Source: Azoarcus sp. | GTDB taxonomy: Bacteria > Pseudomonadota > Gammaproteobacteria > Burkholderiales > Rhodocyclaceae | DNA length: 64,000 nucleotides | Assembly (NCBI GenBank): GCA_030604735.1 | Contig: JAUVVG010000026.1 | Location: forward strand, 1-64,000 | Direction of reading: 5' to 3' | Made by a program: the position numbers and the translations under genes | In this document: positions 37,904-53,660 of the stretch, in pieces | How the letters are laid out: each line of letters opens with the position of its first letter | How positions within the stretch are numbered: position 1 is the stretch's first letter | Notes under the pieces: model-generated | Seen by the model: the letters and a program-made list of their open reading frames with translations, nothing else | Told to the model about the DNA's origin: nothing | The model's database searches: none

Positions 37904-38647
37904 TTATTGACGCCCGATGAGCCGGCCGAGCGCGTCCGGCAGACCTCGCCACGCCTTCACTGGCGGTGGAGCGAAACTCCCCGCTCTGGCCGGACGAGGC
38001 CCGAGCGCGGCGAGCGATTCAGCATGACGGACTGCGCTCGACACACCATCGACGACCGGGACCGGTACGCGATCCGCTATGGTACGCGCAAGCCCGGCCA
38101 AGGGAGCGCCAGCGATGACGATGACGTCCGCACCGTCCGCATTGACCGCGACCTCACACAGAGATAACAGTTGCTCTGCCTTGTCGGTCTGCACAGTCCC
38201 GATATCGGCGAGAGCCTCGTCGATACATCGGATGCTGGCGAGGCGGCCAGACATTCCATGGAAATCCACCGTCTCCTGATACCAGGCGCGAATACGTCGC
38301 GAAATCGCTACGATCGAGAATTTTCCGCCAAGCATCGCAGCGCTCATCAGTGCAGCCTCGGTGAGCCCGACGACCGGGATCGGCAGCATCTCTCTGGCCG
38401 CGGCGAGGCCAGGATCCCCGAACGCGGCCACAATCGCCGCATCATGGCCTGAATGATGCTCGGCGAGCAAGTTCAGCGTGGCGTATGCGCCAACCGCAGC
38501 CTCGGCCCTCGTCTCGATGTAGGCCACGCCCATTGGCGCTGTCAGAACGGTCAGCTCGACACCTGGCGAAGCCGCCCGGCATGCTTCCGCTCGGATCAGG
38601 TCGGTGACACTGTCCGAAATGTTCGGATTCACAATCAAGAGTTTCAA
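37904..38647 (-). CDS. Asp/Glu/hydantoin racemase-fold protein lacking both catalytic cysteines
   Basis: The 247-residue protein begins MKLLIVNPNISDSVTDLIRA, the hydantoin-racemase N-terminus. The start is a TTG at 38647, fixed by AAGGAG six bases upstream; the ATG-type start at 38719 would ignore this. At the first catalytic position, usually a Cys before the FxDPGL motif, it reads IVAAFGDPGLAAAR; at the second, usually GC, it reads VIAGAPLAGLAR. Both cysteines are absent, a trait I recall from one subfamily. It may therefore be a lyase, a binding protein or an isomerase of other mechanism. A 244-base gap separates it from dctM. Confidence 0.85.
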   Translation of the reverse strand: MKLLIVNPNISDSVTDLIRAEACRAASPGVELTVLTAPMGVAYIETRAEAAVGAYATLNLLAEHHSGHDAAIVAAFGDPGLAAAREMLPIPVVGLTEAALMSAAMLGGKFSIVAISRRIRAWYQETVDFHGMSGRLASIRCIDEALADIGTVQTDKAEQLLSLCEVAVNADGADVIVIAGAPLAGLARTIADRVPVPVVDGVSSAVRHAESLAALGPRPARAGSFAPPPVKAWRGLPDALGRLIGRQ

Positions 38648-38891
38648 TGCAATCTCCTTGGAAGCTGTCCGGCTTGAGCAAGCATGGTAGCCTTCGAGTG
38701 GCACCGCCCTTGGGGACATGCGCGAAACAGGGGTCGTACTCTCGTTTTCGGCGAGATCGCGGCGAAACGTCCGTCGCGGACGACGATCACCGCATTCTCG
38801 ATCTCACCGAGCAACGGATCCGCAGTGTGCGGATGCACTTTCATGCAGAAAAAGATTGGCCATTTCATCGCATGGGGCCATGGTTATTTCT

Positions 38892-40172
38892 TCAGAAACC
38901 CAGCGCGCGCGGCAAGGCCGTCACAAGCGGTGGAAACGCGATGCACAAAGCCAGCACCAGAAACTGGAACGCGACGAAGGGCAACGACTCCCGGACCAGT
39001 TGCATCATCGGAACGCGGGTGATCCCACTCATCACGAAATACAACACCCCGACCGGGGGCGTCATCATGCCGACAACCAGGTTGTACATAAACAAGAACC
39101 CGAAATAGAGCGGATCGATGCCATAAGCGACCGCCATCGGCGCAAACAAGGGCACCAGCATGATGTAAGCTGCATTCGATTCGATCAGCATCCCGACCAC
39201 GATGAGCAAAAGCATGGTCAGGATAATGTAGGTCATCGGATCGGCGGTCAGCGACTGTATCCATTCCGACAACATCATCGGCACCATCTCGATGGTGAAC
39301 ACGAAGGTCACCGCTGCGGCAAATGCGATCAAGGCGCCGACCATGGCCGAGGTCACTGCGGCACGATACAGACAGCCGGGCAGATCGGACACGCGTAACC
39401 TGCGAGTGACGACGAAACCGACGAAAGCCGAATAGACAACCGCGATGGCCGCACCTTCGGTTGCAGTGAAGATCCCCCCCACGATACCTCCGACCACGAT
39501 GATCGGCATCATGATGATCACGATCGCGCGCCGGGCCTGAGTCAGGACATTGCGAAGATTGAAACGATCCCCAGTGAGGGCGTAACCTCGCTTCCAGGAT
39601 ATGAAACTCGCGATAACCATGAACCCCACCGCCAGCAGAATTCCCGGGACGATCCCCGCCATGAACAGCCCGCCAACGGAGACAGTGGAGCCGGCCATCA
39701 GCGCATAAACGATCATTGCATTGCTTGGCGGGATGACCGGACCGAGATTGGCTGCCGAGGCGATCACCGCACCCGAATAGGCATCCGGGTAGTACTTTCG
39801 CAGTGCGGGTACCAGGGTACTGCCCATTGCACTGGCGCTCGCCACGGCGGCACCACTAACCGACGCCAGTATCGTGCCGGAAACAATGGTCACATGGGAC
39901 AAGCCCCCGTGCATGCGACCGACCAGACTGTTGGCGAACGCGATCAAGCGGTCCATGATGCCTGCACGAACCATCAGCTCCCCCGCGAGCATGAACAACG
40001 GAATCGCCATCAGCGGAAAGCTGTTGACCGCATGCATCATGCGCTGAGGCATGACCACGAGTTCGAAGTCCAGCAGGTGCAGTGCCGCAAGGGAGCCGAA
40101 ACCAAGGGCAAACGCCAAGGGCATGCCAAGAACGGCAAGAAACAGGAACAAGGCGATGGCGACGATCGTCAT
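38892..40172 (-). CDS. dctM: TRAP transporter large permease (DctM), system 1
   Basis: The 426-residue inner-membrane protein has about twelve transmembrane segments and the DctM marks FMLAGELMVRAGIMDRLIAF and AANLGPVIPPSNAMIVYALM. It carries the sodium-driven transport step for an organic acid delivered by the DctP protein. Its ATG overlaps the dctQ stop (ATGA). Together with dctP and dctQ it forms the 3' half of a five-gene transcript, if the racemase and DUF3830 genes are included. Confidence 0.95.
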   Translation of the reverse strand: MTIVAIALFLFLAVLGMPLAFALGFGSLAALHLLDFELVVMPQRMMHAVNSFPLMAIPLFMLAGELMVRAGIMDRLIAFANSLVGRMHGGLSHVTIVSGTILASVSGAAVASASAMGSTLVPALRKYYPDAYSGAVIASAANLGPVIPPSNAMIVYALMAGSTVSVGGLFMAGIVPGILLAVGFMVIASFISWKRGYALTGDRFNLRNVLTQARRAIVIIMMPIIVVGGIVGGIFTATEGAAIAVVYSAFVGFVVTRRLRVSDLPGCLYRAAVTSAMVGALIAFAAAVTFVFTIEMVPMMLSEWIQSLTADPMTYIILTMLLLIVVGMLIESNAAYIMLVPLFAPMAVAYGIDPLYFGFLFMYNLVVGMMTPPVGVLYFVMSGITRVPMMQLVRESLPFVAFQFLVLALCIAFPPLVTALPRALGF

Positions 40173-40744
40173 GCAGGCTCTCCCGCCCAGGTTTTAGACC
40201 CGCCCCACGCGAGCAGGGCCAGGTGAAGCAGGGAATGAGCCCCGCAGATCAGCACCGCGATGTAATAGATCGCCGAAGTCACTGGCAATGTCGGCATCAA
40301 CTCGGGCCAGCGATCGACCGTGGCCACCCAACCTCCCAGCATGACCATGACCATCAACAGGGTCGAAAGGCCGGCCATCAAGCGAAACAGCAGCTCCCGT
40401 GCATGCTCCGGCATCATCATCACGAATAGATCGATACCGACGTGCACGCCGTGCTTCACGCCATGCGGTATGGCAAGAAATATGCCCCAGACAAAGCACA
40501 GACGCGAGAGCTCGTCGGCCGAATCGATCGACGAATTCATTACGTAGCGCATGAACACCTGCGACGACACGATGACCGTCATCAGCCCCATCACGACCAC
40601 AATGATCCCGTAGGTCGCTCTATCCACCCAGCCAATAAAACGCTTGAAAGCGAGAAAGGCTGCGGAGCGCTGCGGCCCCGTGGGGCGCTCCGTCTGCCCC
40701 TCCTCCGTATCAAGGTCGATCACAGTGTTCATGGCTTCACTCAC
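40169..40744 (-). CDS. dctQ: TRAP transporter small permease (DctQ), system 1
   Basis: A 191-residue membrane protein with four transmembrane segments and the DctQ motif SADELSRLCFVWGIFLAIP; the next stretch, HGVKHGVHVGIDLFV, is also typical. It stabilises the large permease. It overlaps dctP (ATGA) and dctM (ATGA). The first 35 residues form a soluble acidic N-terminus. Confidence 0.94.
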   Translation of the reverse strand: MSEAMNTVIDLDTEEGQTERPTGPQRSAAFLAFKRFIGWVDRATYGIIVVVMGLMTVIVSSQVFMRYVMNSSIDSADELSRLCFVWGIFLAIPHGVKHGVHVGIDLFVMMMPEHARELLFRLMAGLSTLLMVMVMLGGWVATVDRWPELMPTLPVTSAIYYIAVLICGAHSLLHLALLAWGGSKTWAGEPA

Positions 40745-41745
40745 TGAGCTGCTGCTCGGGTCTCTTCAAGCACCAGGTCGATCACCGCAGGATCCACGCG
40801 TTGTTTGAGCTGATCGACCACACTGGCTGTCGCCTCGCGCAGTGCCGCCCGCAAATCGGGCGAAATCGGTGTGAACTCCATGCCCGCCGCAATCAGTTTC
40901 TCGCGCCACTCGTTCTCTTCCGCGTCAGCGGTCTTGCGCTGCCATTCCATCGCTTCCTGCATGGCCTCGTCGACTATCTGGCGGTGCTCTGCAGAGAGGC
41001 GGTCGTAGTGTCGTTTGTTGGCCACGGCAGTGATGAAGTCATAGAAATGGCCGCTATCCGAAAAGTGCTTCTGTACCTCATTGAAGCGCCGGCTGGCGAT
41101 GATGTTGTAAGGGTTCTCCTGGCCATCGAGGACACCTTGCTGCAACGCCGAGTAGAGTTCCGATACATCCATCGACTGGGGGTTGGCACCCAGCGCACGG
41201 AAGGTCTGCAAATGCACCTCGTTGGGCTGAAGGCGGATACGCATGCCACGGAAGTCATCTACCGAGGTGATCGGACGAAGGTTGTTGGTGACATGGCGGA
41301 AACCCAGCTCACCATAGCCCAGATTCACGAATCCCAAGTCGGCCATCTTGGCGTCGAATATCTCGCTCACCTTGCCTTCCATGACCTTGAACGCCTGCTC
41401 ACGACTATCGAACAGGAACGGCAGACTCACCGCTTCGTACTCCGGCACCGTACGGGTGAAATAGGCAATGGACGCAAGCACCGCGAAGACGGTGCCGGAT
41501 CTGACCTGATCCACGTTCTCGACTGCGCCGCCCAATTGCATTGCCGGGAAAAGGTCGACGCGAATGCCGCCATTGGAGCGCTCTTCGACACGCTCCTTGA
41601 ACAGTTCCATCGCTCTGGAAGCGCTGTGATCCAGTGTAAAGTTGCCCGCTACCCGGAGGCGCTCCTGAGCGGACACCAGCCCACTGACCACCATTCCCGC
41701 AGCCAGCGCCGCAGCAAGCGTTAAAAGACGTGCTTTTCCAATCAT
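40741..41745 (-). CDS. dctP: TRAP transporter solute-binding protein (DctP), system 1
   Basis: The 334-residue periplasmic receptor has a signal peptide (LLTLAAALAAGMVVSGLVSA) cut near AQE. The DctP signatures GMRIRLQPNEVHLQTFRALG, PQSMDVSELYSALQQGVLDG and QENPYNIIAS are present. The arginine in RIRLQ is the usual carboxylate clamp, so the ligand is a carboxylic acid. GAGGAG stands six bases before the ATG. The promoter with an embedded palindrome lies about 240 bases upstream. Confidence 0.95.
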   Translation of the reverse strand: MIGKARLLTLAAALAAGMVVSGLVSAQERLRVAGNFTLDHSASRAMELFKERVEERSNGGIRVDLFPAMQLGGAVENVDQVRSGTVFAVLASIAYFTRTVPEYEAVSLPFLFDSREQAFKVMEGKVSEIFDAKMADLGFVNLGYGELGFRHVTNNLRPITSVDDFRGMRIRLQPNEVHLQTFRALGANPQSMDVSELYSALQQGVLDGQENPYNIIASRRFNEVQKHFSDSGHFYDFITAVANKRHYDRLSAEHRQIVDEAMQEAMEWQRKTADAEENEWREKLIAAGMEFTPISPDLRAALREATASVVDQLKQRVDPAVIDLVLEETRAAAQ

Positions 41746-41980
41746 GTTGCACTCCTCGTCGTTAATTTCAATGCACCAACCGGCTTGAACCGGAACCACA
41801 CACTGGCGACAGCTCAACGCTGTCAGCAACAAGAAGCAACATAGGTGCCAGAAACACACCTCCTCGATATTCAGGGCAAAGACGCGACGCAAACGCGGAA
41901 CCCGCTTGATCCTACGAATGCAACCCGCTCATACACACATGAACTTGGGAATTTTTTGTATCCAATACTTGACATAAAAA

Positions 41981-41997
41981 AGCACTATAACTGTGCA
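41981..41997. promoter_or_regulatory. Operator-like palindrome, TGCAC-N7-GTGCA type
   Basis: AGCAC-TATAACT-GTGCA, with one mismatch to the perfect form seen at 42078 and 47960. It covers the -10 box of the first TRAP promoter, the place where a repressor would block RNA polymerase. Nearby are the half-site GGTGCAT (42022) and, further in, TTGTATCCAATAC (41956-41968). Confidence 0.6.
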
Positions 41998-42077: not shown

Positions 42078-42094
42078 TGCACTCTTAATGTGCA
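42078..42094. promoter_or_regulatory. Operator-like palindrome upstream of the GntR gene
   Basis: TGCAC-TCTTAAT-GTGCA, a perfect 5-bp inverted repeat with a 7-base AT-rich centre, lies 184 bases before the GntR start. It has the same form and spacing as the elements at the two TRAP promoters and could mediate autoregulation. Confidence 0.55.
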
Positions 42095-42277: not shown

Positions 42278-42961
42278 ATGGAACTCGATACGCCCGTCAA
42301 GCCGGACATCGAAGAGATCGCGGATCGGATCACCAATGCGGTGATGGAGCATCGCCTCCCTCCTGGCATCAAACTGGCCGAGGAACGGCTCGCGGGTGCG
42401 TTCGGGGTCAGCCGGACCAAGATCCGTCAGGCGCTGACCATGCTTTCGAAGAATGGGCTGGTGAAACTCCATCCCAATCGCGGCGCCTTCGTGACCAGTC
42501 CGTCGGTGAAGGATGCACTGGACCTGTTTGCGACACGGCGTTTGATCGAACCCGAAATCGTACGCAACGTGATCGCCAATGCTGGCAAGGCGGAGTTGAA
42601 ACGCCTTCACGCACACCTCAATGAAGAAGCCGACGCCCGCAGGCGCGGCGACCGGCGCGCCATCATCAAGCTGTCCGGCGTATTCCACATGTTGCTGGCC
42701 GAGGTCGCTGGCAACAGCTTCATCGAGAAGCTGATGGCTGAACTGTGCCCGCTGACCTGCTTGATCATCGCGCTCTACGACGCCCCGCAGACGCCGGCCT
42801 GCCCGGAGAACGAACACGTGCAGATCGTCGAGGCGATAGAGCGCAAGGATGAAGAGGAGGCCGTGCGGCTGATGGTCCGCCATCTCGATCACGTCAAGAA
42901 CGAGTTGCGGCTGGGCGCCGGCAAGAAGCCGGATATCGACTGGGACAGCATGTTCGGCTGA
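42278..42961 (+). CDS. GntR-family transcriptional regulator, FCD subgroup
   Basis: The 227-residue protein has an N-terminal winged helix-turn-helix (about 10-75: IEEIADRITNAVMEHRLPPG, EERLAGAFGVSRTKIRQALT) and a C-terminal FCD effector domain (about 85-215) with the metal-binding pattern HAHLNEEADARRRGD, FHMLLAEVAGNSFIEKLM and HVQIVEAIERKDEEEA. Such regulators usually repress uptake and breakdown genes until an organic acid binds. It diverges from the first TRAP operon and stands near three copies of the TGCAC-N7-GTGCA palindrome, making it the likely controller of both TRAP operons. Confidence 0.93.
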   Translation: MELDTPVKPDIEEIADRITNAVMEHRLPPGIKLAEERLAGAFGVSRTKIRQALTMLSKNGLVKLHPNRGAFVTSPSVKDALDLFATRRLIEPEIVRNVIANAGKAELKRLHAHLNEEADARRRGDRRAIIKLSGVFHMLLAEVAGNSFIEKLMAELCPLTCLIIALYDAPQTPACPENEHVQIVEAIERKDEEEAVRLMVRHLDHVKNELRLGAGKKPDIDWDSMFG

Positions 42962-43104: not shown

Positions 43105-44589
43105 TCAGCGATAGCCGTAAAGGCGTGCGAGTGCGCTCGACAATGCCTCTGCGGTTTCCTGGCCACCCAGACCCGATGCGCTGCGGTTAGCGCGGGCCGT
43201 GTTCGCGGCGGCACGCGCCAGCTCATCGAGCGGGTTGCCCTCGAGCATCCCCCCGCGTTGGCGAATTTCACCCCCGACCATGGTCAGGACGACATCGCTC
43301 CCTCGTGCGCGAAACGCGATTGCTTCGAGCACCGACGTGTCCGAGTCGCACCACGGCGCCAGGACCCGGGCAGTGGAAATCGCCACCAGATCCGCCACCT
43401 GACCGACCTCGACACGCCCGCTCGACTCACGAGCAAAGCGGGCCCTGGCCCCGTTCGTCGTGACCATGGCAAGCAGCTGTCGCGCCCGCACCGCGCCCAG
43501 GACATGCATCCCGGACGCGCGGGATAACCCGTCGGCAAGATGCAGTTCGGCGAGCAGATCCTCGTCGTCGGTCAAGGCGCAGTTGTCGGTGCCCAGCGCC
43601 ACCGGGATCCCTGCGGCGAGCATGGCGGCAACCGGCGCGGTGCCGTTCGCAAGGCGCATGTTCGAACCCGGGTTGTGCACGACGATGGCGCCGCTCTGGG
43701 CGATCTGGTCCATGTCGTTTTCGGTCACATGAACACAGTGCGCCAGTGCGGTGTGTGATCCGAGCGCACCGAGCGCCTGCATCCGTCGCAGACAGCCTTC
43801 CGGGTAAAGGTTGGCCCCCTCGCTGGCCTGGACCGGGGATTCGAGCAGATGAAGGTGAATCCCCAGGCCATGGTCGCGCGCATCCGCCGCCAAGGCTGCG
43901 AGAAGCTCATCCGACACCCACTGCGGCCCAGCCGGGCCGTAGGCCAGCGTCACCAGCGGATGATCGCCAAACTCTGCCTGCAGCGCCCTCATCAAGGCGA
44001 TCGTCTCCGACGCCCCTCCGGCATAAGGTGTGCGACGCGGCGGTGCGAGTCGGCCCCGCGCGATCTCTGGCAGGCTCTGGATCAGCCCGGTTTCGTCCTG
44101 GCTCGGATAAACCAGCATGCCGCGATCCATCGCACCGACGCAGAAAGTGACCCGCAAGCCGGCATCGATGTAGGCCCGCAACGAGGCCCGCGCTTCGGCT
44201 GCATAGTCGCCACTGCCATAACTGTAGTTGGCATGTACCGTTGCGGTCACACCATTCTTCAGCATGTTCGCCGCGGCCAGGCGAGTCAGCGCATAGGGAT
44301 CGGGGGCGCCACGCCCCTGACGACGCGCGATCCACGGCTCCAGGTGATCATCGGGGTAACCCAGAAGAACCTGGCTGATGCCCCGCCCATGCTGATGGGC
44401 ATTGATCAGCCCTGGCATCAGGATCGCGTCCCCGAGATCGAGGTGTTGCGCCGACTCTGCGGAGGCTTCTGCATCCGCCCCCACCGCGACGATACGCTCC
44501 CCCTCGACGAGGACGCGACCCGGGGTCTCGACAAGTCCACTTGCCGGGTCGATGAGAACCCCGGCCGTCCGGATCAACAGCCCCGACAT
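43105..44589 (-). CDS. Amidohydrolase-superfamily enzyme (TrzN/8-oxoguanine deaminase-like)
   Basis: The 494-residue enzyme has the metal site NAHQHGRG after MPGLI, later ligands in IHLHLLES and ALAHCVHV, and the catalytic Asp in ALGTDNCALTDDEDLL. The fold is that of cytosine-deaminase/chlorohydrolase relatives, which deaminate or dechlorinate N-heterocycles. It starts three bases after the stop of dctM2, so it belongs to the second TRAP operon and probably acts on the transported compound or a product of it. The substrate is unknown. Confidence 0.9.
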   Translation of the reverse strand: MSGLLIRTAGVLIDPASGLVETPGRVLVEGERIVAVGADAEASAESAQHLDLGDAILMPGLINAHQHGRGISQVLLGYPDDHLEPWIARRQGRGAPDPYALTRLAAANMLKNGVTATVHANYSYGSGDYAAEARASLRAYIDAGLRVTFCVGAMDRGMLVYPSQDETGLIQSLPEIARGRLAPPRRTPYAGGASETIALMRALQAEFGDHPLVTLAYGPAGPQWVSDELLAALAADARDHGLGIHLHLLESPVQASEGANLYPEGCLRRMQALGALGSHTALAHCVHVTENDMDQIAQSGAIVVHNPGSNMRLANGTAPVAAMLAAGIPVALGTDNCALTDDEDLLAELHLADGLSRASGMHVLGAVRARQLLAMVTTNGARARFARESSGRVEVGQVADLVAISTARVLAPWCDSDTSVLEAIAFRARGSDVVLTMVGGEIRQRGGMLEGNPLDELARAAANTARANRSASGLGGQETAEALSSALARLYGYR

Positions 44590-44592
44590 CGC

Positions 44593-45903
44593 TCAGCGCC
44601 CGTACATCAACTCGGGGAGGAACAACGCGATCTGCGGGAACATCATCAATAGCGCCACCATCAGCAGCATGATCAGGGTGAAGGGCAAAGCGCCCCACAC
44701 CACATCCATCACCGAGCCGCCATCCGGCCTGACCCCCTGGACGATGAAGAGATTCATCCCAAGTGGTGGCGTAATCAGGCCGACTTCCATCATCAGCACC
44801 AGGAACACGCCGAACCAGACCGGGTCGATTCCGAGGAACAGCACGATCGGCATCACGATCGGAATCGTCATGATCATCATCGACAGTGTTTCCAGGAAGC
44901 AGCCGAGGATCAGGTAGAAGATCACCAGCAGCAGCAGAATCTGCAATGGCGTCGTGCCGGTGTCGGCCACAAGGCCGGTGATCGCCTGCGGAATGCGCAA
45001 CACGCCCATCACGAACGACAACAGCTGGGCGGCGAGAACGATGAGCATGATCATCGCCGTGATCTTGACCACCGACAGCAAGGCCTCGTTGAGAACCTTG
45101 AAGCTCAGGCGCCGGCGCGCTGCCGCCAACGCGAGCGCGGCAATGACGCCGACCGCGGCCGACTCGGTAGGCGTCGCCCAACCGGAATAGATGCTGCCCA
45201 TGATCACAGCGAAGATGATGAGCGGCGGCAGCAGATCCACCAGCCGCGTCAGACGCTCCTTCATGGGAACGGGCGGGAGCTTTTCGCCGGCGATCGATGG
45301 ATTGATCACGCTCAGGACCGCGACGAAGATCATGAACAGCGCCATCAGCAGCAAGCCCGGCACGATGGCTGCCAGAAACAGCTGCCCGATCGATGTGTTC
45401 GACATCGACCCGTAGATGATCATGTTGATGCTGGGCGGGATCAGGATGCCCAGCGTGGCGCCGGCCGCGATGGTGCCGAGCGCGATCCGCTCCGAATAGC
45501 CATGTCTTTTCATGGAAGGCAAGGCCACGGTGCCGATGGTCGCGGCAGTCGCCACCGAGGAACCGGAAACCGCCGAGAACATGCCGCAGGCACCGATGTT
45601 GGTGTGGAGCAAGCCACCTGGCCAACGGCGGACCCAGTCCGACAAGGCGACGTACATGCGGTCGGTGATGCCGCTCCGTACCAGAATTTCGCCGAGCAGG
45701 ATGAACATCGGAATCGCGGTCAGAACGAAGTCATCGAGAATGCTCCACATCTGGTTGCCGAACATCATCAGGGACGGCACCCCCAGATAGAACAAGGCAC
45801 CGATGATGGCGACCGCGAACAGGGCACCGGCGACCGGAAGCCCGACCAACATCAGCCCGAGCATGATGAAGAAGCCGATGAACGATTCGGTGATACTGAT
45901 CAT
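44593..45903 (-). CDS. dctM: TRAP transporter large permease (DctM), system 2
   Basis: The 436-residue membrane protein has the DctM marks FILLGEILVRSGITDRMYVA, AAGATLGILIPPSINMIIYG and EVGLITPPLGMNLFIVQG, with about twelve transmembrane segments. It is only distantly like the first system's DctM. The start at 45903 overlaps dctQ2 (ATGA); the frame reaching back to 46551 reads through dctQ2 in another frame. Confidence 0.95.
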   Translation of the reverse strand: MISITESFIGFFIMLGLMLVGLPVAGALFAVAIIGALFYLGVPSLMMFGNQMWSILDDFVLTAIPMFILLGEILVRSGITDRMYVALSDWVRRWPGGLLHTNIGACGMFSAVSGSSVATAATIGTVALPSMKRHGYSERIALGTIAAGATLGILIPPSINMIIYGSMSNTSIGQLFLAAIVPGLLLMALFMIFVAVLSVINPSIAGEKLPPVPMKERLTRLVDLLPPLIIFAVIMGSIYSGWATPTESAAVGVIAALALAAARRRLSFKVLNEALLSVVKITAMIMLIVLAAQLLSFVMGVLRIPQAITGLVADTGTTPLQILLLLVIFYLILGCFLETLSMMIMTIPIVMPIVLFLGIDPVWFGVFLVLMMEVGLITPPLGMNLFIVQGVRPDGGSVMDVVWGALPFTLIMLLMVALLMMFPQIALFLPELMYGR

Positions 45904-46535
45904 GCGCGCTGCTCCCCATCCGCTGTGGCCGCAGGCGCAGCCGAATCCTTGGTCGAAGTCTTGGCCTCGACCTCGGAGGTGACCTCTTCGATTTCCTCCG
46001 AAAGCGTCTTGATGCCGTACCACTGGTTGATACCGCGCCAGTCGCCTATCAGAAGGCGCAGGCAGTGCAACGCGATACAGGTCGCCACCACCGCGAACAG
46101 CACCATCCCCCCGGCCCAGACCGCCTGGGGCATCCACAACGGCGTCATCAGTGGCGTTCCGGACAGACTCTGGTACTCCATGCTTTCCCGCACCGCGACC
46201 ACGGCACGCCAGGCCAGAAATACCGACATCGCCGACATGAACAGCACCGACACAAAATTGAGCGCCGCACGGGCCTTGTGCGGAACACGCTCGACCAGAA
46301 TCTCGATGCGGGTGTGGCCGCGCTCGAGCAATGCATAGCCGGCACCGATCGCAGTGACGGTGGCCAGCATGTAACCACCGAACTCGTCCGCGCCTTGCAG
46401 CGAAATGCCAAAACCGCGCCGCAAAATGATCTCGAGACCGATGGCAATAGTGATCAGCAGGACAGCGTAGCCTGCGGCAAGCGCCGCAAAGCGAACAGGC
46501 GGTCCAAGCCAGCGATCGAGAGGATTCTTGTCCAT
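45900..46535 (-). CDS. dctQ: TRAP transporter small permease (DctQ), system 2
   Basis: A 211-residue protein with four transmembrane segments and the motif GADEFGGYMLATVTAIGAGY. Its C-terminal 45 residues are a charged cytoplasmic tail (EEIEEVTSEVEAKTSTKDS) longer than usual. I chose the ATG at 46535, with GGAG five bases before it, over a GTG two codons upstream. Confidence 0.92.
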   Translation of the reverse strand: MDKNPLDRWLGPPVRFAALAAGYAVLLITIAIGLEIILRRGFGISLQGADEFGGYMLATVTAIGAGYALLERGHTRIEILVERVPHKARAALNFVSVLFMSAMSVFLAWRAVVAVRESMEYQSLSGTPLMTPLWMPQAVWAGGMVLFAVVATCIALHCLRLLIGDWRGINQWYGIKTLSEEIEEVTSEVEAKTSTKDSAAPAATADGEQRA

Positions 46536-46588
46536 ACCCACTCCGGAACAACGATTACCGATGTGCTGAAACGCAACTATCGAACAGT

Positions 46589-46658: not shown

Positions 46659-47711
46659 TCACTCTATCGTCAGGCCCAGCGCCTTGCCGACCGTATCATT
46701 CCAGGTCGCCGAACATTGCGGATCGACGGCATTGCAGGTCTTGGCCCAGATCGGGAGCGTGACGCTTTGAGCGGCGTCCTTGACCCGCTGCCTGTCCTCT
46801 TCCGACACCTCGACGAGCGTCATGTTGAAGGCCTTGTGCTCCTTGCAATCGGCTCCACCGGTGCTGCAAACGGTGGCGTCGCCGTTGGCCTGCAATGCGA
46901 CATCCCACAGCGCGGCTTCCAACTCACGGAAGGTCGCCTCGAGCTTGGCTTGCTCCTCGGGCGAGAAGCGGTTCCAGGTATCCAGATTGATGAAGTGACC
47001 TTGCACCGAGCCCGACACGGCAAGCGGCAGGAAGTGCGTGGTAACTTCGGGCCAGCTTCCCGAGTTCGACGAGGTAGGCGAGGTCACGCCACACGATGCG
47101 ACACCCCGCTGCAAGGCGGTGTAGACCTCGCTGAACTGCAGCGTCACCGGGGTTGCCCCGAAATGCTCGAGCAGGGCCGACATGGTCGGGGTGAAGGTAC
47201 GCACCCGCAGGCCACGCATGTCTTCCAGAGAGGCGATCGGCTGGTTGCAGAAGAATACCTGCGGTCCGAACGGCCACAAGGACAACACCTTGGCGTTGAA
47301 ACGGCTTTGCAATCGCTGGTCGAAGGCCTCACGATAGGCGTCGACTGCGACGCGCAGCGAGTCCATGTCGGTGGCTACGCCAACCACATCGATCCCCTCG
47401 AAGAACGGATCGTCACGCGATGCCATACCAATCTGAACAGACATCACATCGAAAGCACCGGATCGCAACATCCTCAACGCGTCGGGTGCACGAACACCGA
47501 CCACGTCCATCGGGTTGTAGTTGACGTTCACCGCCACCCCGGACTTCTCGGCCAGGTTTTCGAAGAACGCACTCTCGACCGCAACGTGCTTGACGTTCTG
47601 CGAGAAGTTACCGGTCACACGCAGGTTCTGGGCGGCCTGGGCAGACGCCGCGAAACCGGCACCGCATACCAGGGCTGCAATCCACATCGTAAGTTTCTTC
47701 TTCGTTGACAT
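46659..47711 (-). CDS. dctP: TRAP transporter solute-binding protein (DctP), system 2
   Basis: The 350-residue receptor has a signal peptide (LTMWIAALVCGAGFAASAQA). The DctP core is present: MRGLRVRTFTPTMSALLEHF, ATPVTLQFSEVYTALQRGVA and the ligand-clamp Arg in RVRTF. Extra cysteines in CSTGGADCKEH and KTCNAVDPQCS suggest disulfides in the C-terminal part, which is unusual. GGAGAGAG lies five bases before the ATG at 47711. It is the first gene of an operon continuing to dctQ2, dctM2 and the amidohydrolase. Confidence 0.94.
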   Translation of the reverse strand: MSTKKKLTMWIAALVCGAGFAASAQAAQNLRVTGNFSQNVKHVAVESAFFENLAEKSGVAVNVNYNPMDVVGVRAPDALRMLRSGAFDVMSVQIGMASRDDPFFEGIDVVGVATDMDSLRVAVDAYREAFDQRLQSRFNAKVLSLWPFGPQVFFCNQPIASLEDMRGLRVRTFTPTMSALLEHFGATPVTLQFSEVYTALQRGVASCGVTSPTSSNSGSWPEVTTHFLPLAVSGSVQGHFINLDTWNRFSPEEQAKLEATFRELEAALWDVALQANGDATVCSTGGADCKEHKAFNMTLVEVSEEDRQRVKDAAQSVTLPIWAKTCNAVDPQCSATWNDTVGKALGLTIE

Positions 47712-47959
47712 AAGTGCTCTCTCCATTCGTCACAAGGGGTGATTCGGGTGATTCGGAACTACGTCATGCGGTCGCTTCACCACGAGCGACCCGGCATGAC
47801 TGCTTTGCTGAAATCATGCATTCGCAAGCAGCGTGCCAGCCACATCTCGACGCCCCGGCAGCAAACGTGTAACACCAGCAAAACAAGCGCACGCAAGCGG
47901 ATTCAAGCGACGCCATCCTTTCGAGCGCCAGCACCGCACACTCGATTGCATGCACTTAA

Positions 47960-47991
47960 TGCACTATAAATGTGCACGATTCTTCGGTAAA
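47960..47991 (-). promoter_or_regulatory. Promoter and palindromic operator of the second TRAP operon
   Basis: Minus strand: TTTACC (47991-47986), 17 bases, TATAGT (47968-47963). The -10 box lies within the perfect palindrome TGCAC-TATAAAT-GTGCA (47960-47976). Another partial copy, TGCACTTAATGCAC, follows at 47951, and GGTGCAT at 48003. The layout copies that of the first TRAP promoter at 41981-42011. The 564-base gap between dctP2 and the next gene holds no coding region. Confidence 0.65.
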
Positions 47992-48181: not shown

Positions 48182-48210
48182 GTTTGTGTTTTATTTTGTA
48201 TACATTTATA
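48182..48210 (+). promoter_or_regulatory. Candidate promoter of the decarboxylase-hydantoinase operon
   Basis: TTGTGT (48182-48187), a 17-base spacer and TATAAA (48205-48210). The spacer holds TTGTATACA (48194-48202), whose TGTATACA is a perfect 8-bp palindrome and matches TTGTAT-type sites elsewhere in this island. The start codon is 66 bases downstream. Confidence 0.5.
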
Positions 48211-48275: not shown

Positions 48276-49007
48276 ATGTCGGACATACGCACCTTACTGG
48301 GAGTACTGACCCCCTCCTCCAATACCGCGCTAGAACCGCTCACTTCGGCGATCGTAAGTGGCCTGCCCGGCGTCAGTGCGCATTTCTCGCGCTTTACCGT
48401 CACCCGGATCTCGCTCGAGGATCAGGCGCTCGGCCAGTTCGATGACACCAAGATCCTGGCTGCCGCGAAGTTGCTGGCCGATGCCCGGGTCGATGTCATC
48501 GGCTGGAGCGGCACTGCTGCCGGATGGATGGGGTTCGATCAGGACCGCGCGCTTTGCCGCCGGATCGAGGACGCCACCGGCATTCCCGCCACGACGTCCG
48601 TTCTTGCGCTGAACGAGATCCTCGCGCTTTCCGGACGCCGCAAGTTCGCCGTGGTGTGCCCCTACACCGAAGATGTGGAGGCCCGCATCGTCGCCAATTA
48701 CATTCAGGAAGGTTTCGATTGCGTGGCCTCGAGCAGGCTCGACATCTCGGAAAACTTCGCATACTCCGAGGTCTCGGCCGAAACGCTCACACGCCAGTTG
48801 AAAGAGGTCGCCGCTACCCAACCCGACGCGATCGCGACCTACTGCACCAATCTGCGCGCGGCGCATCTTGTCCCGCAGTGGGAAGCCGAGTTCGGCATCC
48901 CGGTCTTCGACACCGTCTCGACCGTCGTCTGGAAGATGCTGCGCATGACCGGCCACGACCCGGCCAGCATCTCCGGCTGGGGTCGCCTGTTCCAGGAGGT
49001 CAAATAA
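48276..49007 (+). CDS. Maleate isomerase/arylmalonate decarboxylase-family protein
   Basis: The 243-residue protein has the Asp/Glu-racemase superfamily fold: LGVLTPSSNTALEPLTSAIV at the N-terminus, and YCTNLRAAHLVPQWEAEFGI with Cys190. Where maleate isomerase and racemases have a first cysteine it reads WSGTAAGW (residues 77-84). One cysteine plus a Ser-Gly-Thr loop is the arrangement of arylmalonate decarboxylase (240 aa, Cys188), so decarboxylation of a malonate-type acid is plausible, by inference. GGGGA precedes the ATG. The stop overlaps the next start (TAATG). Confidence 0.85.
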   Translation: MSDIRTLLGVLTPSSNTALEPLTSAIVSGLPGVSAHFSRFTVTRISLEDQALGQFDDTKILAAAKLLADARVDVIGWSGTAAGWMGFDQDRALCRRIEDATGIPATTSVLALNEILALSGRRKFAVVCPYTEDVEARIVANYIQEGFDCVASSRLDISENFAYSEVSAETLTRQLKEVAATQPDAIATYCTNLRAAHLVPQWEAEFGIPVFDTVSTVVWKMLRMTGHDPASISGWGRLFQEVK

Positions 49008-50494: not shown

Positions 50495-51292
50495 TCAGGC
50501 CGCCATCCAGCCGCCATCCACCATCAGGGTCGTGCCGGTGATGAAGGTCGCATCATCGCTGGCCAGAAAATGTACCGCTCTTGCGACATCGTCAGGATGT
50601 CCAAGACGCGACCAGGGCGTGCGGCGCACGGCACGATCGAGTACGCCAGGATCGACCGCGCGCCCACCCGCTCCGGTCTGAATCTTGCCCGGTGCCACGG
50701 CGTTGCACACAATGCCGTGTTCGGCATAATCCGTGGCCACCTGGCGGGTGAAATAATCGATGCCCGCCTTGCTGACACCGTAGGCCAGGTCTTGTGGTGC
50801 CGCGATCATGCCGTGCTGGGACGACAGATTCACGATACGGCCCCGCACTTCGGCCATCGGGTCTTGCTGCAACATCTGCCTGACTGCCGCACGCGAACAC
50901 CGGAAAACACCGGACAGATTCACGTCGATTACACGCTGCCAGGCTTCTTCTTCCATTTCGAGCAAGGGCCGGGCGTGGCGAATGCAGGCGTTATTGACCA
51001 GAACATCCAGACGGCCATGGCGAGCGACGGCCTGCGCAAGCAAAGCCTCGACATCCGCCATACGCGAAACATCGGTACGCACGAACTCCGCGTGGCGGCC
51101 CTCGCGCTTGATCAGGTCGGCCGTAGGCTCGCCGCCTTCTATGACTTCAGTCGTAAGGTCGGCCACGATGACCTTGGCGCCATGCTCTGCCAGGCGACGC
51201 GCAATGGCCCGACCGATGCCGGACGCCCCCCCCGTCACGATACAAATCTTGTCGCGTACATTCATCGCCTCAACTGGCGTGGATACCGTCAT
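50495..51292 (-). CDS. Short-chain dehydrogenase/reductase
   Basis: A 265-residue classical SDR that oxidises or reduces an alcohol/ketone with NAD(P). The coenzyme site TGGASGIGRAIA, the DVSRM region, NNAC, the catalytic Ser in VNLSSQHG and Tyr/Lys in YGVSK are all present. VIVADLTTE after the second strand (an Asp) favours NAD. Its start overlaps the epimerase stop (ATGA). Substrate unknown; it is probably part of the same catabolic set as the neighbours. Confidence 0.93.
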   Translation of the reverse strand: MTVSTPVEAMNVRDKICIVTGGASGIGRAIARRLAEHGAKVIVADLTTEVIEGGEPTADLIKREGRHAEFVRTDVSRMADVEALLAQAVARHGRLDVLVNNACIRHARPLLEMEEEAWQRVIDVNLSGVFRCSRAAVRQMLQQDPMAEVRGRIVNLSSQHGMIAAPQDLAYGVSKAGIDYFTRQVATDYAEHGIVCNAVAPGKIQTGAGGRAVDPGVLDRAVRRTPWSRLGHPDDVARAVHFLASDDATFITGTTLMVDGGWMAA

Positions 51293-52290
51293 TGTGTATT
51301 CCTCCTTTCAAACGAAATGTTTCCGTAACACCCCAGCCAGACTCGAAAATCGTCAAGCGCCGGCTCGAGATCGAAGCTGGGCACAAAAGCTGTGTCGGCC
51401 AACAAGCGGCTGATGTCCATGGATGCACGGTCGTAGTCGGCGTAGTAATCGATGTTCGCGGCTGTTTCGGCATTGGCCATGGACCAGGCGAAACCCGGTT
51501 CGGATGCAGCCAAGTGCTCGCACCATTGCACGATGCTCCACTCGTAACCGGCCGCAAGGTTGTAGACGGAATGCTGGCAAGTCGCATCCAGCAGGCAGGC
51601 CATGGCGGCCGCGGCGTCACGCACGTACAACCAATCGCGCTTGCTGTCGCGCGGCAAGACCACCGGTCGCCCCTGCTGCGCCAGGCGCATGATCTGCAAG
51701 GGCGCACTGGGCGTGTCACGCACACCGGTGTCGGCCTCCCAAGGCCCAAAACACGTACCTAGACGCCCCACCACCAGCGGCAATCCATGCAACGCGGCCA
51801 GCCGCTGCACCGCCTCTTCGGCGGCACGCTTGGACATGCCGTACAAGCTCTCCGGCATCAGCGGCGAAGAATCTTCATGCAAGCGACCCGCAGCGCGACC
51901 GCTGGCACCATAAGCCGACCCCGAGCTGACATACAGCACCCGCTGCACACCACATTGCGCAGCGACCGACACCGCCGCCAGCGCACCCCCGACGTTTACC
52001 TCAAAGATCCGCTGTGGCATCGCGATCTCGCGTCGCGCGTCTGCGGTGATGGCTGCCATCGCCACCACATGCCGTGGTTGGTATCGCAGCATGACATCGC
52101 GCAAGGCCGCCTCATCGCAAACATCGCCCTGCACGGCAGAGAAGCGGCCCGGCAAACCCTGGAATACCGCCAAGGCCGCAGCGGACGGCATGCTCAAGTC
52201 ATAACCCACCACTTCCTGACCCGCGACCAGCAAATGTTCCGCCAGTGCAAGTCCTGCGAATCCACTACAACCTGTAATGAGTGTGCTCAT
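51289..52290 (-). CDS. NAD-dependent epimerase/dehydratase-family protein
   Basis: The 333-residue extended SDR has the N-terminal LITGCSGFAGLALAEHLL, the catalytic YVSSGSAYG and Tyr-Lys in LYGMSKRAAEE, and the substrate region RLGTCFGPWEADTGVRDTPS. Members act on nucleotide sugars or on free sugar acids (for example D-erythronate dehydrogenase). Here the context of acid transporters favours a small hydroxy acid, which is inference. It is the first gene of a two-gene minus-strand operon with the SDR. Confidence 0.88.
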   Translation of the reverse strand: MSTLITGCSGFAGLALAEHLLVAGQEVVGYDLSMPSAAALAVFQGLPGRFSAVQGDVCDEAALRDVMLRYQPRHVVAMAAITADARREIAMPQRIFEVNVGGALAAVSVAAQCGVQRVLYVSSGSAYGASGRAAGRLHEDSSPLMPESLYGMSKRAAEEAVQRLAALHGLPLVVGRLGTCFGPWEADTGVRDTPSAPLQIMRLAQQGRPVVLPRDSKRDWLYVRDAAAAMACLLDATCQHSVYNLAAGYEWSIVQWCEHLAASEPGFAWSMANAETAANIDYYADYDRASMDISRLLADTAFVPSFDLEPALDDFRVWLGCYGNISFERRNTQ

Positions 52291-53604: not shown

Positions 53605-53660
53605 GCGGGATCGATGGCCATTGTCATCTCGACCAACCCATGAGTGACAGCTCGATGTCC
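53605..53660 (+). pseudogene. Fragment of a second dihydropyrimidinase
   Basis: The 56 bases translate as [19 protein letters not shown], matching the metal-binding region [19 protein letters not shown] of hydA (49176-49231) with 45 of 56 bases alike by eye. Most differences are third-codon changes, so this came from a diverged homologue rather than a recent copy. The rest of the gene is gone. The fragment overlaps the 3' end of the RES toxin gene in antisense. Confidence 0.75.

Follow-up and report, generated by a model that had tools for sequence, protein, structure and literature searches.

The window, by which we mean the whole 64,000-nucleotide stretch of the Azoarcus sp. contig that was analysed, carries on its plus strand an uninterrupted reading frame of 243 codons (48276-49007) that opens with an ATG at 48276 and closes with a TAA at 49005-49007. 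Its product, a relative of arylmalonate decarboxylase (AMDase) and maleate isomerase, is called here the AMD-like protein. The gene lies in what seems to be a module extending from 37.9 to 52.3 kb, with the following genes and elements:

37904-38719, minus strand: second Asp/Glu-racemase-family protein, resembling allantoin/hydantoin racemases (PF01177, 139.5 bits; PDB 5lfd, 7e-34)
38892-40172, minus strand: large permease DctM of the second TRAP set (PF06808)
40169-40744, minus strand: small permease of the second TRAP set, assigned by position and clustering alone
40741-41892, minus strand: binding protein DctP of the second TRAP set (PF03480, 285.7 bits)
41982-41997, no strand: inverted-repeat element GCACTATAACTGTGCA, between the second TRAP set and the GntR gene
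42079-42094, no strand: inverted-repeat element GCACTCTTAATGTGCA, in the same intergenic region
42278-42961, plus strand: GntR/FCD-family regulator (Pfam FCD and GntR; same gene cluster in 24 clustered loci)
43105-44589, minus strand: deaminase-like amidohydrolase of the TRZ/ATZ type (relatives in loci L002, 61%, and L155, 50%; 8 of 93 family loci have one closer than 6 kb)
44593-45903, minus strand: large permease DctM of the first TRAP set (PF06808, 324 bits, scanned as 44596-45888; start ATG at 45903 taken from the open reading frame)
45900-46541, minus strand: small permease DctQ of the first TRAP set (PF04290)
46659-47726, minus strand: binding protein DctP of the first TRAP set (PF03480)
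47961-47976, no strand: inverted-repeat element GCACTATAAATGTGCA, between the first TRAP set and the AMD-like gene
48196-48205, no strand: TTGTATACAT, about 70 bp before the AMD-like start codon
48276-49007, plus strand: AMD-like protein, a single-cysteine member of the Asp/Glu-racemase fold, 243 aa, with G79, T80, Y130 and C190
49007-50455, plus strand: dihydropyrimidinase/D-hydantoinase, 482 aa, coupled through TAATG (PRK13404, 797 bits, cut-off 647)
50495-51292, minus strand: short-chain dehydrogenase, SDR (relatives in plasmid modules of Klebsiella, 70%, and Methylobacterium, 65%)
51289-52290, minus strand: NAD-dependent epimerase/dehydratase-family protein (relatives in the same two plasmid modules, 60% and 47%)

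The SDR and epimerase-family genes (50495-52290) probably belong to the module in the window but not to the module in general. Their close relatives lie inside the modules of L164 (70 and 60% identity) and L168 (65 and 47%). As core members they were rejected, since of the 93 family loci only 5 have the SDR and 3 the epimerase at a distance of up to 6 kb.

The AMD-like protein belongs to the Asp/Glu/hydantoin racemase superfamily both by Pfam, with PF17645 (Amdase) at 82.5 bits against a cut-off of 25.9 and PF01177 (Asp_Glu_race) at 38.2 bits against 31, and by the fold of its model. AMDase (1e-13) and maleate isomerase (1e-12) are matched by sequence in the PDB, and an AlphaFold model (pLDDT 91.9), for which 25 family sequences were aligned as input, has its best fold matches in maleate isomerase (2xed and 4fq5, Z 32.4) and AMDase (3dg9 and 3ixl, Z 30.2). 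The motifs W77-S-G-T-A-A-G83 and Y189-C190-T-N-L-R-A are read directly from the protein. The original prediction, that the first catalytic cysteine of the fold is replaced within WSGTAAG and Cys190 is kept in YCTNLRA, was borne out by alignment: HMMER pairs G79 and C190 with the first and second cysteines, respectively, of the maleate isomerase 4fq7, MAFFT placed them in the same columns across 165 sequences, and neither alignment brings another cysteine to the first site. The description of the protein as a relative of maleate isomerase with AMDase-like catalytic residues also stood, through the fold on one side and the Gly-Thr first site, Tyr130 and Cys190 on the other.

We followed these residues through a family set of 100 sequences gathered from genome contigs, genomes and plasmids, excluding from the residue alignment 20 loci that were assumed, and not individually checked, to repeat the window or genomes already included, as well as sequences whose core duplicated one already in the set. 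Tyr130 is present in all 100 members, Gly79, Thr80 and Cys190 in 99 each and Ser81 in 92, while P13, S14, T191 and the maleate-isomerase-type residues N16, R39 and N160 are invariant (each 100/100). Loss of the first cysteine with retention of the second characterises 99 of the 100 members and all seven AMDases that pass the NCBIfam cut-off, or eight of eight when L083, placed among the AMDases by motif and tree position, is counted. Among 57 other relatives the same state was found in 3, and 43 have both cysteines. The predicted Thr/Ser oxyanion loop held in part, with threonine present (T80) and serine replaced by Ala81, the window's own lineage being among the exceptions at this site. Threonine at site 80 (44/53) and serine at site 81 (35/53) are frequent in other relatives, mostly two-cysteine ones. 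Since the pair is thus usual in two-cysteine relatives too, only the missing cysteine is distinctive, and the loop is no mark of decarboxylation. Family members come mostly from Proteobacteria, and also from an Arthrobacter and a Leptolyngbya plasmid. The sole family exception, L169 on plasmid pC of Ensifer adhaerens, has lost both cysteines and adjoins a tripartite tricarboxylate transporter instead of a hydantoinase. A further cysteine, Cys94, is conserved in 99 of the 100 members and lies at neither catalytic site. Outside both the family and the AMDases, L123 and L210 (genome G424) have GGTS at the first site, cysteine at the second and an adjacent TRAP transporter, and they could represent a further single-cysteine lineage.

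PMC4996985 gives glycine in place of one active-site cysteine as the mark that separates AMDases from racemases and describes the occurrence and metabolic role of AMDases as little known; the AMDase residues used here are those of its Tables 4 and 5, including criterion 10 (G74 with C188). Like the AMDase of Bordetella bronchiseptica KU1201 (EC 4.1.1.76; 3dg9/3ixl), the AMD-like protein has the fold, glycine at the first-cysteine site (G79 for G74) with C190 for C188, and equivalents of P14 (P13), T75 (T80) and Y126 (Y130). Unlike AMDase, it has serine for P15 and alanine for S76 (Ser in most of the family), which leaves the P14-P15 and T75-S76 pairs incomplete, and threonine (T191) for G189; moreover, Asn16 and Arg39 stand where AMDase has small residues. 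The hydrophobic pocket of AMDase (L40, V43, Y48, V156, M159) is not present as a set. L40 and V43 are swapped only for V42 and I45, and L52 is likewise similar or hydrophobic, but V156 is N160 and M159 is Tyr163 (Phe in 95/100). On the NCBIfam equivalog arylmal_decarb (NF052327) the protein scores 76.3 bits against a cut-off of 225, compared with 232-386 bits for the seven AMDases above it. To judge by these scores and residues, the AMD-like protein is no AMDase proper: the resemblance noted originally does not extend to membership, Pro15, Gly189 and Val156 of AMDase being Ser14, Thr191 and Asn160 throughout the family, and an ordinary AMDase was rejected on profile cut-off and pocket residues. 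Taken residue by residue, the protein is a hybrid, AMDase-like at the catalytic thiol and threonine and maleate-isomerase-like at the presumed far-carboxylate residues. AMDases over the cut-off were found in none of 369 genomes of a class-wide sample and in 7 of 21 genomes that hold the AMD-like family.

The closest fold is that of maleate cis-trans isomerase (EC 5.2.1.1; Pseudomonas putida S16, 4fq5/4fq7; Nocardia farcinica, 2xed), with rmsd values of 1.7-1.9, and the two proteins share the PSSN start motif, H36, R39, Y130, N160 and Cys190. The PSSN, Tyr and Asn residues, which bind carboxylate in maleate isomerase and presumably hold the far carboxylate, are all present in the AMD-like protein (P13, S14, N16, Y130 and N160) and in every family member. 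The two-cysteine pair of maleate isomerase, by contrast, is reduced to G79 and C190. Maleate isomerase works by a covalent mechanism with the first-site cysteine, C82, as nucleophile; with Gly79 at this site the known covalent mechanism cannot run. EutA of hydroxyectoine utilisation belongs to the same superfamily, and its operon in Leisingera (L161) serves a six-membered nitrogen-ring compound and includes a TRAP transporter, as here. Leisingera EutA keeps cysteine at both sites, unlike the AMD-like protein, which lacks the first and scores 75.9 bits against a cut-off of 318 on the EutA profile TIGR02990; in a class-wide sample of 274 genomes no EutA over the cut-off was found. Operons of the hyu/hpx type combine a hydantoin or allantoin racemase with a hydantoinase, and the window resembles them in placing a hydantoinase next to racemase-fold proteins. 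In contrast to those operons, neither racemase-fold protein here has the two-cysteine pair (one cysteine in the AMD-like protein, none in the 37904-38719 protein), and there is no N-carbamoylase among the ten window proteins scanned. An ordinary hydantoin racemase coupled to a hydantoinase was rejected for want of the pair. Nor do the scanned window proteins include an M20, amidase or beta-lactamase-fold enzyme. On other contigs of the genome, two M20 proteins pass the TIGR01879 cut-off, which is weak evidence for a C-N hydrolase, as 6 of 14 control genomes also have one.

Translational coupling of the AMD-like gene with a hydantoinase had been called unexpected for such an enzyme, and this did not hold: adjacency is a trait of the family. 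Of 93 family loci, 79 have a hydantoinase no more than 6 kb away, as against none of 18 control loci (other superfamily members, seven of them AMDases), a count that speaks against chance neighbourhood; in 67 of 92 it is the next gene downstream and has the same orientation. The 93 loci include near-copies (several from Ralstonia, Cupriavidus and Variovorax) and are not 93 independent events. The number of genomes behind the controls is smaller, G445 contributing four in addition to its AMDase and G448 two, and the flank of L215 is short; two of 20 control loci (L218, L222) were dropped as the family profile found nothing in them. Also within 6 kb in the 93 family loci are a GntR regulator (78), an MFS transporter (67), a second Asp/Glu-racemase-type protein (65), an FAH-family protein (39), a beta-lactamase-fold protein (25), a TRAP binding protein (12), an M20 hydrolase (11), a deaminase-type amidohydrolase (8), an SDR (5) and an epimerase (3). 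In the controls we counted three TRAP binding proteins, one FAH protein and none of the other neighbours. Because the neighbour profiles were built from family loci and would fail to detect unrelated types of GntR or MFS protein around the controls, the contrast in regulators and transporters is less telling than that in hydantoinases.

For six of the 14 family loci in which the 6-kb search found no hydantoinase there is a simple explanation: L008 and L032 are truncated by the end of the contig, L013 and L018 neighbour another copy that does have the gene, and in L168 and L172 an annotated hydA lies slightly farther off. The remaining eight lack it (L076, L152, L156, L157, L165, L166, L167 and L169). 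Some such relatives carry another amidohydrolase or an amidase. The module occurs on plasmids of Azospirillum, Paracoccus, Klebsiella, Arthrobacter and Salipiger, the unannotated hydantoinase of the Azospirillum plasmid being detected by our search. In some plasmid modules there are further genes, for dehydrogenases, an amidase, a deaminase-type amidohydrolase or an FAH protein, and an amidase was annotated or found in 6 of 16 family plasmid loci, one of which has no annotation. The divergent member L156, on a plasmid of Rhizobium sp. ACO-34A, is clustered with genes for an HpaB-type monooxygenase, a flavin reductase, an amidase, a PuuE-like hydrolase and deaminase-type amidohydrolases; the cluster probably encodes a similar route for a different N-heterocycle. 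In Paraburkholderia (L013, L018, L021) there are two close copies of the AMD-like gene with its transporter, one accompanied by beta-lactamase-fold genes and the other by the hydantoinase.

In the window, the ATG of the hydantoinase gene at 49007 has one base in common with the AMD-like stop codon (TAATG), with AGGAGG just upstream. This one-base overlap is not general; the same spacing recurs in L002 and L078, and in most other loci the two genes are about 5 to 90 bases apart. The hydantoinase scores 540 bits on TIGR02033 (cut-off 393), and its best sequence matches in the PDB are D-hydantoinases (4kqn, 7e-122). Its His-X-His, Lys, His, His and Asp motifs, which we take to be metal ligands, are conserved in all of 86 aligned rows wherever the column is filled, and on this evidence the enzyme looks catalytically active. 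No other dihydropyrimidinase was found in the genome (95% complete), where the next full-length match is 26% identical. Three kilobases downstream, an isolated stretch of 49 bp on the plus strand (53607-53655) is 88% identical to the metal-site region of the hydantoinase gene and has the appearance of a scar left by recombination.

The second racemase-fold protein (37904-38719), encoded 9.5 kb from the AMD-like gene, has alanine at both catalytic-cysteine sites (A99 and A205); its N-terminal stretch of about 24 residues may reflect an over-long start. The Ala/Ala state was found in 46 of 46 rows of a first alignment and in 68 of 70 homologous rows, that is, in all 68 readable at both sites. 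The remaining two rows are the two parts of a single broken frame in L074, and each has alanine at the one site it covers.

The inverted-repeat elements follow the pattern GCACTNTNNNTGTGCA, which has four matches across the genome of 4.06 Mb. Three of these fall in the module, within its two divergent intergenic regions, and L002 (5225-5240) and L078 have one copy each; a reversed control pattern has none. The pattern was written from sites spotted by eye in the window and L002, which makes its expected count of 0 post hoc, and, as it was read off these very sites, its rarity is suggestive only. Both TRAP operons probably form one regulon. The palindrome TGTATACA lies upstream of the AMD-like gene or the operon head in only three of 93 loci, all related, namely the window, L002 (near 5453) and L004 (about 2.9 kb before the gene). 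It was consequently rejected as a family-wide operator and is a candidate operator at the level of the lineage.

Among the loci from L080 on, which lie outside the set used to build the family profile, members score at least 237 bits and the next relatives at most 123. In a quick tree, for which the family was thinned from 100 to 29 sequences and eight short or very distant rows were omitted, the family forms one side of a branch with an SH-aLRT of 100, and so do the AMDases. A joined clade of the two was not rejected (p-AU 0.64 by a quick method, with the trait columns and three long-branch rows removed), and the joined tree scores 10.6 log units above the free tree. A single loss of the first cysteine, shared by the family and the AMDases, would thus be possible. 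The gene is patchily distributed: in a set of 61 genomes, made up of the window's own and those of 60 relatives, 7 have any match, and two have a close one in addition to the window's own.

The data show the fold (by model), the loss of the first cysteine with retention of the second throughout a distinct, widespread subfamily, and the genetic linkage to a dihydropyrimidinase, a GntR regulator and a transporter. Our leading interpretation, held tentatively and at somewhat less than an even chance, is that the AMD-like protein is the one-cysteine partner of a hydantoinase in a catabolic operon and decarboxylates a malonate-type product. An acidic N-heterocycle, a cyclic ureide or imide, would be imported, in some hosts deaminated first, and opened by the hydantoinase; an amidase, beta-lactamase-fold or M20 hydrolase would then free the ureido or amide group. 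The resulting malonate-type dicarboxylate or half-amide would bind with one carboxylate on Thr80, Tyr130 and backbone amides and would be decarboxylated by the AMD-like protein; as in AMDase, the enediolate would receive its proton from Cys190 on a single face. In favour of this reading are the cysteine pattern shared with the AMDases, the fold of the model, the joined clade, the linkage to a hydantoinase with conserved metal-ligand motifs and the hydrolase genes in some of the loci. A barbiturate-type ring hydrolysed at both C-N bonds gives a malonate, the substrate class of AMDase. As Gly79 removes the second acid/base, racemisation or covalent isomerisation of the maleate type is not to be expected. 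Against decarboxylation count Asn160, at the place of the hydrophobic Val156 in the carboxylate-destabilising pocket of AMDase, Ala81 instead of the dioxyanion Ser76, the AMDase profile score far below its cut-off, and the eight family loci that lack a nearby hydantoinase. With Asn160, N16 and R39 in place, the enzyme may retain the second carboxylate instead of expelling it. Asn160, together with the lack of a C-N hydrolase for the second cut among the scanned window proteins, makes isomerisation and lyase chemistry real rivals.

The first of these is a one-base isomerase or epimerase, which we regard as unlikely, catalysing a proton shift on the N-carbamoyl or dicarboxylate product of the hydantoinase with Cys190 as its only thiol. 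Tautomerisation, a double-bond shift or epimerisation would all be conceivable variants, with another residue or water as partner. It is in line with the best structural match, maleate isomerase, and with the invariance of N16, R39, Y130 and N160, through which a second carboxylate is probably bound. However, the first-site cysteine is one of the pair typical of racemases, and its replacement by glycine in 99 of 100 members, with no conserved substitute base there (G79-T80), argues against such a reaction. In its favour, the two-cysteine relative EutA is a proposed racemase in hydroxyectoine use (PMC5924519). Somewhat less likely still is a C-N or C-O lyase acting on N-carbamoyl-aspartate or a similar product of ring opening, from which it would release urea, ammonia or water, with Cys190 as base and the enolate held in the dioxyanion site. 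Such a lyase fits a C4-dicarboxylate pocket resembling that of maleate isomerase, the hydantoinase linkage and the missing N-carbamoylase among the ten proteins scanned, but would be unneeded in those hosts whose module includes amidases or M20 hydrolases (11/93), and we know of no characterised superfamily member that is a lyase of this kind.

That the protein is a true AMDase acting on the usual aryl- or alkylmalonates, with the hydantoinase incidental, is improbable. The single cysteine, the Pfam Amdase score (82.5 bits against 25.9), the matches of Pro13, Thr80, Tyr130 and Cys190 to P14, T75, Y126 and C188 and the joined clade are compatible with it; on the other side stand the arylmal_decarb score (76.3 against 225), the missing equivalents of P15, S76, G189 and V156, and a hydantoinase nearby in none of seven AMDases as against 79 of 93 family members. 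Furthermore, six of the seven Variovorax genomes searched that hold the family also carry a separate AMDase over the cut-off. A non-catalytic or vestigial protein is hardly credible, for despite L169 with neither cysteine and the Ala/Ala state of the operon's second racemase-fold protein, C190, Y130, N16, R39, N160, T191 and N192 vary little or not at all across the 100 sequences, which is unexpected for a dead gene.

Returning to the one-cysteine decarboxylase, the hydantoinase linkage across many bacteria points to a widespread pathway degrading a nitrogen-ring compound. No paper joining these genes came up in our literature search, made mostly without subscription papers, and as far as the searches go an operon with one- and no-cysteine racemase-fold partners is undescribed. 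We consider it nearly an even chance, falling just short of one, that this is a widespread pathway absent from the searched literature, in which a hydantoinase feeds two racemase-fold enzymes re-purposed by losing one and both cysteines, respectively, so that a cyclic ureide or imide undergoes ring opening, decarboxylation and further conversion. If true, the single-cysteine enzyme would add a third natural reaction to those of the maleate isomerase and AMDase scaffold, acting on a substrate used by no known member. The conserved operon gives an AMDase-like enzyme a defined upstream step, so that the question of the role of AMDases becomes testable via the substrate of the hydantoinase. Moreover, the family offers a natural experiment in which one or both cysteines of the racemase fold are lost while the protein stays conserved, and it may be a new source of cofactor-free biocatalysts.
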